A program made the translations under genes and the position numbers. From assembly GCA_030429345.1 (NCBI GenBank), contig JAUIFJ010000023.1, forward strand, positions 1 through 62,359: 62,359 nucleotides of DNA. Direction: 5' to 3'. A model generated the notes under the pieces. The model was not told the DNA's origin and made no database searches. It worked only from the letters and a program-made list of their open reading frames with translations. The stretch is from a bacterium (GTDB lineage: Bacteria > CAIWAD01). Positions 38,383 through 43,118 of the stretch are shown here, piece by piece; position 1 is the first letter of the stretch, and the number at the start of each line of letters is the position of its first letter.

Positions 38383-39342
38383 ATGTCTTTCACTTGTCTT
38401 GCCCGCGCCTGCGCCCTGCTGCTCGCGTTGTCCCTTGCCGGCTGTGAGTCTGGCCTGGACTCGAAGCCCCCCATCGATCATCCGGATCTGGAAATTCGCC
38501 TGCTTGAAGACACTGTACGGGCAGGAGTTCCCCTGGCGGCGGAATGCGAAGTCCTTGCCGGAGAATGGAGCGACTGGGAGTATTCCTGGCGTGTACAGGC
38601 CGGGGAATGGACGGAGGATCCGGTCCTTGGCCCCGTGCGCATGCACTGGACGCCTCCTGCCGGAGTAAGTCCCTTCTGGATCGAGGTGACGGCCCGAAGC
38701 GAGGCGGAATCGATGACCGAACGGGTTCTCGTGCCGGTCCTGCAACCGGGAATCCCACAGGCGATGCTGCAGGGCATTCCGGATGGGATCGAACCCGACG
38801 AGCCCTTCGAGATCCGGGTCCTCACTCTGGACAGCCTGCACTTCCCGCTGAGCTATGCCTGGACCTGCGCATTGCTGCCGCCTTCGCACACGACGAGTTC
38901 CTCCCGGCAGGAACTGGATGCCTTCGGGCACAAGGGAGCGTTTCCCCTCACCGTGGAAGTGCGCAATGACCTGCACGCGATCCTGCTTCAGGATACACTT
39001 CATGTCGTGGACACGCCTCCGGTCTTCGACTGGGTGCATTTCGATTCCGATGACGATGGCTTCGGTGATACCTTCGCCGCGGGTTCCGTACTGCATCTGG
39101 AAGTCGAGCTGCGCGAAGCGAACGGAGACAGCCTCGGTTTCCGCTTCGAAGCGCCGAACTGCGAAGTGCTGGAGTATACCTTCGCCCCCTACGAGGCCCC
39201 CGTCAATGGCAGTACCCATTTCGCGCTGCTGGATCTGCGCCTGCCGCCCACGCCCGGCACATTGCGGATCGGACTCTTCGCCAGCGATGGAAGCTTCGAG
39301 ACGAGTTCCTGGCGCGAGCTGGTGCTGGAGGAGGCGCCGTGA
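38383..39342 (+). CDS. Lipoprotein with Ig-like repeats, function unknown
   Basis: 319 residues. The signal ends with lipobox LAGC (Cys21). The rest is beta-rich with three segments of about 90 residues that read like PKD/Ig-type domains (EYSWRVQAGEWTED, SYAWTCALLPPSH, TPGTLRIGLFASDG), each following the style of analysed surface adhesins. The 167 bases upstream hold no gene. It is followed by a terminator hairpin at 39449. Confidence 0.75.
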   Translation: MSFTCLARACALLLALSLAGCESGLDSKPPIDHPDLEIRLLEDTVRAGVPLAAECEVLAGEWSDWEYSWRVQAGEWTEDPVLGPVRMHWTPPAGVSPFWIEVTARSEAESMTERVLVPVLQPGIPQAMLQGIPDGIEPDEPFEIRVLTLDSLHFPLSYAWTCALLPPSHTTSSSRQELDAFGHKGAFPLTVEVRNDLHAILLQDTLHVVDTPPVFDWVHFDSDDDGFGDTFAAGSVLHLEVELREANGDSLGFRFEAPNCEVLEYTFAPYEAPVNGSTHFALLDLRLPPTPGTLRIGLFASDGSFETSSWRELVLEEAP

Positions 39343-39448: not shown

Positions 39449-39474
39449 AAAGGCCCGCCATCCGGCGGGCCTTT
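39449..39474. terminator. Bidirectional terminator between convergent genes
   Basis: AAAGGCCCGCC pairs with GGCGGGCCTTT around ATCC, with short A/T runs on both sides. It lies between the + strand lipoprotein gene and the minus-strand gene ending at 39500. Confidence 0.85.
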
Positions 39475-39499
39475 GTGTCTCGTGTCCGCATGCGGACTT

Positions 39500-40252
39500 C
39501 TATTTGAGCAGGATCATCTTCCGGCTGAGCACATCGGCGGGCGTGATCAGCGAGTAGATGTAGACACCGCTGGCCAGAGCGCTGCCGTCGAAGCTCACGC
39601 GGTGGTGTCCGCTCTCATGCAGGCCTGTCGCGAGCACGGCGACTTCGCGTCCCTGCAGGTCGTAGACGCCGAGTCGCGCCTCCATGGTGCTGGCCAGGGA
39701 ATAGTCGATCACGGTCTCCGGGTTGAAGGGATTGGGATGGTTCTGCGCCAGCGCGAAGCCGGTCGGCAGGTCCTCGGCAGCCGCGTCGCCGCAGGCCGTG
39801 TCGTACATCGGATCCGTGACACAGAAGGGATCCCAGAGGGGATCGGTCTGGCACTGGATCGACCAGAAGGGATCCGTGAAGGCGTCGCAGAAGGGCGACC
39901 ACTGGGGATCCGTCGCCTGGCAGTCCGCGGGGAAGAACCAGGGATTGGTCGCCGTGAAGTCGCACTCGAAGGGAAAGAGTGCGGGGTTGGTGAATTCAGG
40001 GTGGCAGATCGGCTGGTACATGGGATCGGTCGGCGCGTCCGTCTCGCGCGCATCTCCCGGATGCTTGACGACCGGCTGTTCCTTGCGCGCGGTTTCCTCG
40101 TCGATGTCCACCAGGGCGGCCTGCATGCGCTCGCCGACCTGCCGCGTCTGGTACTCGAAGAGGGGCGTGGCGGACCAGGCGAGCAGCGGCGCAAAGAGGA
40201 TCGAACCTCCGAGAACGCCGAGCATTCTTCGTGATACAAGAGAGTGCTTCAT
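39500..40252 (-). CDS. Secreted protein with TDP/Cys repeats and C-terminal sorting domain
   Basis: 250 residues on the minus strand. A signal peptide (to about residue 28, APLLAWSA) is followed by a helical stretch and then, at about 77-155, seven repeats of the form T-[D/N]-P-x-[W/Y/F/L]-x(2,4)-C, for example TDPLWDPFCV, TDPFWSIQCQ and TDPMYDTACG, each with one cysteine. The C-terminal 80 residues are the FlgD-Ig/type IX-like sorting domain beginning NHPNPFNPETVIDYSL and ending VLSRKMILLK. The repeat has no family I recognise. A sigma54-like site lies 160 bases upstream. Confidence 0.85.
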   Translation of the reverse strand: MKHSLVSRRMLGVLGGSILFAPLLAWSATPLFEYQTRQVGERMQAALVDIDEETARKEQPVVKHPGDARETDAPTDPMYQPICHPEFTNPALFPFECDFTATNPWFFPADCQATDPQWSPFCDAFTDPFWSIQCQTDPLWDPFCVTDPMYDTACGDAAAEDLPTGFALAQNHPNPFNPETVIDYSLASTMEARLGVYDLQGREVAVLATGLHESGHHRVSFDGSALASGVYIYSLITPADVLSRKMILLK

Positions 40253-40745: not shown

Positions 40746-40781
40746 GAAGGGCCGGTGCACATCACGCGGAAAGGACCACAT

Positions 40782-41525
40782 GTGATTCGAGGACTTCTGG
40801 ACAGCAGCGGCGCCATGATCGCCCGGGGCCTGCAGGCCGACATCGGGGCCAACAACCTGGCAAACAGCCAGACCACCGGCTTCAAGAAGGACCGCGTCAA
40901 CTTCCGCGAGTTGATCGACCACCGCCTGCTGCTCGACCGCGGCCGCGGAGCGCCAAGCCCGGAGAACCGCCTGCGCGAGGGCTTCGAGACCCGTTTCACC
41001 CAGGGGCCGATCAAGCGCACCGACGCCCCGCTTGACTTCGCCCTGGAAGGCCCGGGCTTTTTTGCCGTGCTCGATGAGGAAGGCCAGGAACGCTATGCGC
41101 GCGCCGGCCATTTCCTGCTCGACGAGAGCGGATCCCTTGTGACACCGGATGGGCATGCGGTGCTCGGCGAGGCCGGCGCCCTGCAGCTGGGTCCGGGACC
41201 GGTCGAGCTCAACGGCGACGGCCTGCTGGTGCAGAACGGACAGGAGCTGGGCCGCCTGAAGCTGGTCGAGTTCGATGACCCCCAGCGCCTGGCCAAGCTG
41301 GGCCGCAACCTCTTCACGCCCGTAGACGAAGAGACGATCCCCCGGGCCGCCGAGCAGACGCGGGCCCTCCAGGGAAGCCTGGAGAGCAGCAACGCCGCCG
41401 TGGTCGAGCTGATGGTCGAAATGATCGAACACGAGAAAATGTACACCTTCGCCCAGCGCGCCCTGCAGCTGCAGGACGACAACCTGGGCCGCGCGGTCGC
41501 CGAGATCGGCCGTGTGACAGGCTAA
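40782..41525 (+). CDS. flgF: Flagellar proximal rod protein FlgF-like
   Basis: 247 residues. It begins VIRGLLDSSGAMIARGLQAD and contains NNLANSQTTGFKKDRVNF, the rod-protein helix motif. The C-terminus (SNAAVVELMVEMIEHEKMYT) is the matching coiled helix. It is shorter and more divergent than FlgG, so it is called FlgF by position. The GTG at 40782 follows AAGGA by six bases and lies downstream of the sigma54 promoter. First gene of the operon. Confidence 0.88.
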   Translation: MIRGLLDSSGAMIARGLQADIGANNLANSQTTGFKKDRVNFRELIDHRLLLDRGRGAPSPENRLREGFETRFTQGPIKRTDAPLDFALEGPGFFAVLDEEGQERYARAGHFLLDESGSLVTPDGHAVLGEAGALQLGPGPVELNGDGLLVQNGQELGRLKLVEFDDPQRLAKLGRNLFTPVDEETIPRAAEQTRALQGSLESSNAAVVELMVEMIEHEKMYTFAQRALQLQDDNLGRAVAEIGRVTG

Positions 41526-41545: not shown

Positions 41546-42334
41546 ATGATCCGTGCCCTGCACAGCGCCGCCTCCGGCATGTTCGCGCAGCAGCTCAACA
41601 TCGACACGATTTCCAACAACCTGGCCAATGTCAACACGACGGGCTTCAAGCGCAGCCGCGCCGAGTTCCAGGACCTGTTGTACCAGAACCTGCGCACCAG
41701 CGGCGTGGCCAACAGCCTGGGCAACGTGGCGCCGACCGACCTGCAGGTCGGCACAGGAGTCAAGGCCACCAGCCTGACGCGGCAGATGTCGCAGGGCGAT
41801 GTGGCACAGACCGGCAATCCGCTGGATTTCGCCGTCGAGGGCCAGGGCTTCTTCCAGGTCCAGCGGCTGGACGGAACCATCGGGTATACACGGGACGGAT
41901 CTTTCAAGCTGTCCAGCGACGGCATCCTGGTGACCACCGACGGCCTGACGCTGCAGCCGGAAGTCGCCGTGCCCGCCGGCACGCAGAGCATCTCCCTGTC
42001 GCGGGACGGCATTCTGAGCGCCCTGGTCGGAACGGACACGGAGGCGGTGCAGATCGGCACCCTCGAGCTGGCGATCTTCACCAATCCCGCCGGCCTGAGG
42101 GCCGTGGGACAGAACCTCTTCGCCGAGACCGCCAGTTCCGGCGCCCCGCTCCTGGGCGCGCCCGGCAGCGAGGAGTTCGGCCAGACCGCCCAGGGCTTCC
42201 TGGAAAGCTCGAATGTGCGCGTGGTCGAGGAGATGGTGGCGATGATCAGCGCGCAACGGGCCTACGAGATCAATTCCAAGGCCATCCAGGCCAGCGACGA
42301 GATGCTGTCCACGGCCTCGAGCCTGAGGCGCTAG
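41546..42334 (+). CDS. flgG: Flagellar distal rod protein FlgG
   Basis: 262 residues, typical length. It begins IRALHSAASGMFAQQLNIDT and has NNLANVNTTGFKRSRAEFQD, then the FlgE/F/G fold (GNPLDFAVEGQGFFQVQ) and a C-terminal SSNVRVVEEMVAMISAQRAY helix. It polymerises as the distal rod beneath the hook. GAAAGGAGC precedes the ATG. Confidence 0.95.
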   Translation: MIRALHSAASGMFAQQLNIDTISNNLANVNTTGFKRSRAEFQDLLYQNLRTSGVANSLGNVAPTDLQVGTGVKATSLTRQMSQGDVAQTGNPLDFAVEGQGFFQVQRLDGTIGYTRDGSFKLSSDGILVTTDGLTLQPEVAVPAGTQSISLSRDGILSALVGTDTEAVQIGTLELAIFTNPAGLRAVGQNLFAETASSGAPLLGAPGSEEFGQTAQGFLESSNVRVVEEMVAMISAQRAYEINSKAIQASDEMLSTASSLRR

Positions 42335-42338
42335 CTCC

Positions 42339-43118
42339 ATGCGGTCCCCCTGTGATACGGCGCGCGAGCAGCGCGGCTGGCACCAGCCCTCGCGCCTGGC
42401 CCTGATGCTGGCCTTCAGCCTGGCCCTTCTCAGTCTGCTGGGCATTGCCGAGGCCCTGGTGGCCGCCACATCTGCGGAAACCCGCTCCCTGGCCGACGAA
42501 CTGAGAATCGCCGTCCGCGCCCGGGTGCTGGAAGGCAGCGCCCTGCGCGCCGACAGCCTGGTAGTGGAGTTCTCGCCCTTTCGCCTGCCCAATAACGCGG
42601 AGTGCGCAAGCTGGACACTGGATCACGACGCCCGCCCCCAGGACCGCCGCGGCGTGACACGGGTGCATTTCGAGGATCCGGAAGGCGGCCGCGGAGCCGT
42701 GCTCAGCCTGACCTGGGAACTGCGCAGCTGGCGCCGCGTGGCCGTCGCCCGCCGCGTGCTGCAGCGGGGTGAGGTTCTTTCCCGCGACACATGGCGCTGG
42801 GAGCTGCGGGATGTGACACGCATCCACGACGGCGTCGAGGCCCGCGGGGAGGATCCCCTCGGACGCGTCTGCCGTCGTCGTGTCGCCGAAGGAGCCGTGC
42901 TGCGCCACAGCCTGCTTTCCCTGCCGGCGGACATCGAGCGCCACCAGCGCCTGACCCTGCGCCTGGAAGGTCAGGGCCTGCGTGTCGAACTGCCGGCGCG
43001 CAGCCAGGAAGAGGCCCGCCTGGGCGAGGAACTCTGGGTACGGATCGAAGACAATGGCCATCGCCTGCGGGCCCTGCTGGTGGAACCCCGGCTGGCGGTT
43101 GTGAAGGAGATGCCATGA
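42339..43118 (+). CDS. flgA: Flagellar P-ring assembly chaperone FlgA
   Basis: 259 residues. A hydrophobic segment (about 23-42) acts as signal peptide, after a 22-residue hydrophilic extension. The SAF-domain pattern VARRVLQRGEVLSRDTWRWE is in the middle, and the end (RLTLRLEGQGLRVELPARS, then LWVRIEDNGHRL) is the usual C-terminal half. FlgA aids FlgI ring assembly. Its stop overlaps the flgH start (ATGA). Confidence 0.85.
   Translation: MRSPCDTAREQRGWHQPSRLALMLAFSLALLSLLGIAEALVAATSAETRSLADELRIAVRARVLEGSALRADSLVVEFSPFRLPNNAECASWTLDHDARPQDRRGVTRVHFEDPEGGRGAVLSLTWELRSWRRVAVARRVLQRGEVLSRDTWRWELRDVTRIHDGVEARGEDPLGRVCRRRVAEGAVLRHSLLSLPADIERHQRLTLRLEGQGLRVELPARSQEEARLGEELWVRIEDNGHRLRALLVEPRLAVVKEMP

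Follow-up and report, generated by a model that had tools for sequence, protein, structure and literature searches.

What is a bacterial surface protein made of when each of its short repeat units carries a single cysteine, and is the repeat one that has been seen before? This question is raised by a gene in the window, which here means the whole 62,359-nucleotide stretch analysed (contig JAUIFJ010000023.1 of assembly GCA_030429345.1, GTDB lineage CAIWAD01). The gene encodes the repeat protein P0001 and sits between a lipoprotein-like gene and a flagellar rod operon that runs divergently from it (Table 1); genes for Der, a PfkB kinase and a lytic transglycosylase follow farther upstream. Its G+C content by codon position is 0.629/0.462/0.837. 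An overlapping plus-strand frame (39473-40234, 253 aa) was taken as spurious, and the surroundings of the gene showed no sigma-70-like promoter.

Table 1. Coordinates of the two repeat proteins, of the parts of the shorter one, and of the genes around it.
Feature	Position	Strand	Remarks
Lipoprotein-like protein	38383-39342	+	319 aa; no Pfam match; convergent with the P0001 gene
P0001, whole gene	39500-40252	-	250 aa; ATG start, stop codon counted in
P0001, probable signal peptide	40169-40252	-	residues 1-28; judged by eye
P0001, N-terminal block	40076-40168	-	residues 29-59 (TPLFEYQTR...ER...LVD); common to the paralogue
P0001, repeat array	39791-40030	-	7 units; one Cys per unit
P0001, T9SS type A sorting tail	39512-39736	-	residues 173-247; TIGR04183
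FlgF/FlgG-like genes	40755-41525 and 41546-42334		flagellar rod operon
FlgA-like gene	42339-43118		flagellar rod operon
Paralogue	G000:C22, L039:8538-13310		1590 aa, 174 kDa; 139 units in 1403 residues

The original prediction described seven T-[D/N]-P...Cys units with one cysteine each in about 80 residues, and the translation places all of them at residues 75-154. The T[DN]P starts fall at residues 75, 88, 102, 114, 126, 136 and 146, the units shorten from 13 and 14 through 12, 12, 10 and 10 to 9 residues, and the cysteines (residues 83, 97, 111, 122, 134, 144 and 154) occur once per unit and nowhere else in the protein. The aromatic residue that had been written into the motif is present in all units but one: six of the seven fit T[DN]Px[FWY]x(2,5)C exactly, while unit 2 (TNPALFPFEC) has Leu in its place, and the looser T[DN]Px(4,7)C covers all seven. 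Shuffling the whole protein 20,000 times gave at most 2 occurrences of the loose motif, and the same maximum was found when residues 73-156 were shuffled as many times. The probable signal peptide has a basic start, a hydrophobic run and then small residues ahead of TPLF, and a linker separates the N-terminal block from the array. A single-sequence structure model was uninformative on the fold (mean pLDDT 43.2, with block means of about 26-46 over the repeats).

Display on the cell surface by way of the sorting tail had also been proposed, and is supported. The tail scores 29.5 bits against TIGR04183 of NCBIfam (cut-off 23) and 26.5 bits against Pfam PF18962, narrowly under the cut-off of 27. 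The genome has a gene for the SprA translocon, with 663.9 bits summed in one frame of 2313 aa against a cut-off of 200, which none of 14 control genomes reached. Together, tail and translocon make export of P0001 by the type IX system well supported at the level of sequence. At least 150 sorting tails are found in the genome, the window gene among them. A sorting tail at G000:C75:219210-219497 belongs to an open frame that, at 5166 residues, would encode an exported protein of unusual size.

A search of the genome with P0001 finds about 150 sorting-tail proteins and, on another contig, a long frame that matches in the repeat only. When the repeats alone are used there are 36 matches, 34 of them in the long frame, one in the window gene and one weak (E 0.09) in a frame that is interrupted by a stop. 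The long frame encodes a paralogue that starts with a signal peptide (judged by eye) and the same N-terminal block as in P0001, and goes on with units of the consensus T-N-P-x-[YFW]-D-P-x-C-x. Most of these units are 10 residues long (n = 111), the others being 9 (n = 11, including the last unit, which is cut), 11 (n = 10) or 12 (n = 7). All 139 have exactly one cysteine, which is the least variable place of the unit. Place 1 is Thr in 135 units and Ser in the remaining 4; place 2 is Asn or Asp in 134, place 3 is Pro in 135, place 5 is aromatic in 124 and place 7 is Pro in 100. The seven units of P0001 align best with units 6-12 of the paralogue (score 210) and with units 22-28 (207), the latter being the place where an extended 12-residue unit matches that of P0001 (CDAF against CDGF). 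When aligned without the signal peptide, the N-terminal blocks give a local score of 71 against a best of 47 in 2000 shuffles, and a two-row profile of the block matches no gene of the genome but these two; judged from this alignment, the blocks are homologous beyond the signal peptide. Towards its C-terminal end the paralogue has a weak Fn3-like match (FN3con, E 0.01, among solved structures). Family profile searches found no sorting tail or recognised anchor in it, and its export is suggested by the signal peptide. The two genes are on different contigs and do not share an operon. The paralogue lies between two genes for DUF4350 membrane proteins on one side and an apparent polA (by eye) on the other, and no operon ties either repeat gene to a partner.

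The long array has a history that can be read from its units. There is a higher-order period of 57 units, at which mean identity is 0.62 against a background of 0.50 over all offsets, a value equalled in none of 300 shuffles of unit order; offsets of 25 (0.555, equalled in 1 of 300) and 32 (0.540, 17 of 300) are weaker. Unit lengths follow the same period. The longer units 21, 23 and 25 return as 78, 80 and 82, and the 9-residue units 35, 49, 60 and 74 as 92, 106, 117 and 131, while unit 20 has no match at 77 and units 47 and 97 are without a length partner 57 units away. Comparing blocks at this distance of 57 units gives a dS of 0.54-0.84 and a dN of 0.16-0.34 (dN/dS about 0.2-0.5), with many synonymous differences and a conserved protein sequence, so the copies are old and the repeat pattern has been kept by selection. 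It could be argued that such arrays expanded recently by chance and have no role, as they are found in a single genome plus one tentative match, but the same divergence between blocks speaks for old, selected copies and leaves this explanation highly unlikely.

How far the repeat extends beyond this genome was approached with several patterns and profiles. Pairs of adjacent units were used as a search pattern, which picks up the window gene at 2 places and the paralogue at 59. In a scan of 84,980 species genomes, a set that may lack the genome of the window itself and those very close to it, this pattern gave four loci. Three of the four were rejected: L058 has stops close by and a tandem WVVFC, L060 is a short near-identical tandem with no array further on, and L061 is a TC/ATCG-type repeat different from the decapeptide unit. 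The protein at L061:1362-1418 (minus strand, Bacillota MAG) contains another cysteine-rich repeat, GTNPTCAATC-like. The fourth locus, L059:3471-3527 (minus strand), is at a contig edge in a Planctomycetaceae MAG and has two good units with TNPQYFPHCQTNPAWSTAC, followed by an unclear frame. Its E-value of 8.4e-7 applies within its own genome, and the locus was picked out of about 85,000 genomes; no further matches to the repeat were found in that genome. It may tentatively be the same repeat, and possibly part of an array in another phylum.

A repeat profile run on 386 genomes matched the window's own and one other, G051, and there was no credible match in the 385 other genomes, which include three of the same family and one of the same class. 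The G051 match (E 6.3e-9; L041/L063) comes from 30 bases of DNA repeated exactly in tandem, which in one frame read like the protein repeat; this frame has 79 residues, lies beside an apparent gene on the opposite strand and was rejected. Exact DNA tandem repeats of this type are a trap for profile searches. A looser pattern, PxarxPxC twice, was found in 7 of 193 genomes. One of these is the genome of the window; the matches in the other six, judged from the listed DNA only, were put down to short tandem repeats or single matches. A narrower pattern found nothing in viral contigs, phages gave no match to the repeat, and plasmids gave no credible one, a match from Deinococcus (E 0.006, 33% identity) being rejected. 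The repeat is thus confirmed in one genome only, with one tentative match elsewhere.

The expectation that the repeat would be unlike known ones is supported, as searches of Pfam, NCBIfam and PHROGs reported no credible repeat family for it. The one match is to Pfam Extensin_1 (PF02095), which reaches 163.7 bits on the whole paralogue (cut-off 105). However, this match is compositional. On a 180-residue piece of the array the real sequence scores 35.4 bits, while four scrambles within units score 43.8, none, 16.6 and none; keeping only places 3, 5 and 7 gives 26.9 bits, and the reversed and fully shuffled sequences give none. As a within-unit scramble outscores the real array, the match reflects the ten-residue period and the composition and not the order of residues, and membership in Extensin_1 was rejected. 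Matches among solved structures to the tail of yeast RNA polymerase II (E 2.5) and to FN3 were too weak to be used. The portions of the open-licence PMC literature retrieved on decapeptides, cysteine-rich proteins, YTV proteins, sheaths, extensins and type IX repeats contain no description of the repeat. On sequence grounds, the unit appears to belong to no known repeat family that could be confirmed.

What, then, might the two proteins do? The reading we prefer, which we hold at somewhat under even likelihood, is that both are structural proteins which are exported to the cell surface and form a two-component material there, joined through their regularly spaced thiols. Each unit would make two consecutive short Asx-Pro turns, [N/D]-P-x-aromatic and then [D/N]-P-x-Cys, plus a link of two residues. 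Such a pair of turns in every unit would give an extended, turn-rich, acidic ribbon (the paralogue's array has a pI of 4.05, with 1 Lys and 6 Arg against 209 Asp and Glu) on which thiol and aromatic ring recur at intervals of about ten residues. The type IX system would carry the 7-unit protein across the outer membrane, and the tail would hold this protein at the surface. The 139-unit protein, being without a sorting tail, would leave by means of its signal peptide and account for most of a fibrous coat or matrix. The shared repeat would then join the short protein to the long one, and neighbouring chains to each other, most likely by disulfides. In favour of this reading are the uniform units of the paralogue, the N-terminal block that only the two genes share, the selection on the protein sequence, and the tail together with SprA; the separate contigs of the two genes and the missing tail or anchor of the long protein count against it. 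The more far-reaching claim that this is a new bacterial structural polymer, made of decapeptides ordered in 57-unit blocks and consisting of a giant of 139 units and a short starter anchored through type IX secretion, a counterpart of the cross-linked repeat materials of animals and plants, is possible but more doubtful.

Cross-linking between molecules or to metal had been suggested from the odd number of cysteines in P0001. The number is indeed odd in both arrays (7 and 139), so that at least one thiol would be spare if all pairing were within the chain. Neither DsbB nor VKOR was found in the genome at E 0.001, with models that detect VKOR in 3 and DsbB in 6 of 14 control genomes; free thiols are therefore possible. 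Among the 15 complete sorting-tail proteins (of 33 distinct ones, the remainder being truncated or lacking a clear start), three have no cysteine, seven have an even number and five an odd one, and thus there is no clear bias towards even numbers in the 12 that contain cysteine. Both observations speak against easy disulfide formation. Three haem-copper oxidases in the genome score over their cut-off, so oxygen may reach the surface and air oxidation of the outer thiols is possible.

If the thiols stay free, the spaced cysteines could, together with neighbouring Asp, Glu and His, bind or store soft metals (zinc, copper or mercury, for example) on the outside of the cell, and the proteins would then be a kind of metallothionein built from repeats. 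The strictly single thiol per unit and an acidic array with 32 His are in line with this, as is the lack of matches to DsbB and VKOR. Known metallothioneins have their cysteines in CxC or CxxC pairs, whereas here the thiols are ten residues apart. A role in metal binding would also leave the conserved Thr, both prolines and the aromatic ring unexplained, and a scan of nine neighbours recognised no metal-resistance gene, all of which makes it unlikely. A plain spacer or adhesive stalk seems no more probable: an extended polymer in which the cysteines serve short-range packing, comparable to mussel or extensin-like decapeptides. The ten-residue Pro/Tyr period comes close enough to these for the Pfam extensin match, but this match is one of composition, the paralogue has no recognised domain to present other than its weak Fn3-like end, and cysteine is the least variable place. 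It is far less probable again that the arrays are precursors cleaved into many near-identical decapeptides. A common N-terminal block ahead of highly repeated short units is what such a precursor would have, but paired basic sites are missing from both arrays, basic residues of any kind are very rare in the long one, one of the two proteins bears a sorting tail, and the variable places vary freely between units.

If the preferred reading of a thiol-joined surface material is true, a polymer that offers a thiol and an aromatic ring once in ten residues, 139 times over, would be a model for bacterial protein coats, and the repeat a source for cross-linkable materials. The two proteins would make a simple test case of how a short repeat protein with an anchor and a long one without it work together. 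It is worth noting that seven Lys and Arg in 1403 residues would leave hardly any peptides of use after trypsin digestion, so that proteins of this kind could escape standard proteomics.

Several known systems resemble the two proteins in part. As predicted cargo of the type IX system, P0001 is of type A, with its tail and with SprA in the genome, although the repeats carried as cargo match nothing, and the paralogue differs in being without a tail. Type IX systems may occur in FCB phyla besides Bacteroidota, according to a paper on the sorting domain (PMC11285876). Thrombospondin type 3 repeats, which the original prediction had named as a family that might account for the repeat, are likewise acidic and Asp-rich and have the motif DxDxDG; there is no Pfam match to them, and the motif is absent from both arrays. 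Extensin_1 covers plant cell-wall decapeptide proteins, which share the ten-residue period and the richness in Pro and Tyr. Extensin motifs are SPPP and YxY, neither of which occurs in either array; the array of the paralogue is also without PPP, and it differs in having one Cys in each unit. Another likeness is to the YTV-domain proteins, which are cysteine-rich, come from cell-wall preparations and are, according to PMC8567305, confined to Planctomycetales. Their Pfam family is absent among the matches at E up to 10 for both proteins, and what sets the present repeat apart from them is the regular placing of one cysteine in each ten-residue unit.
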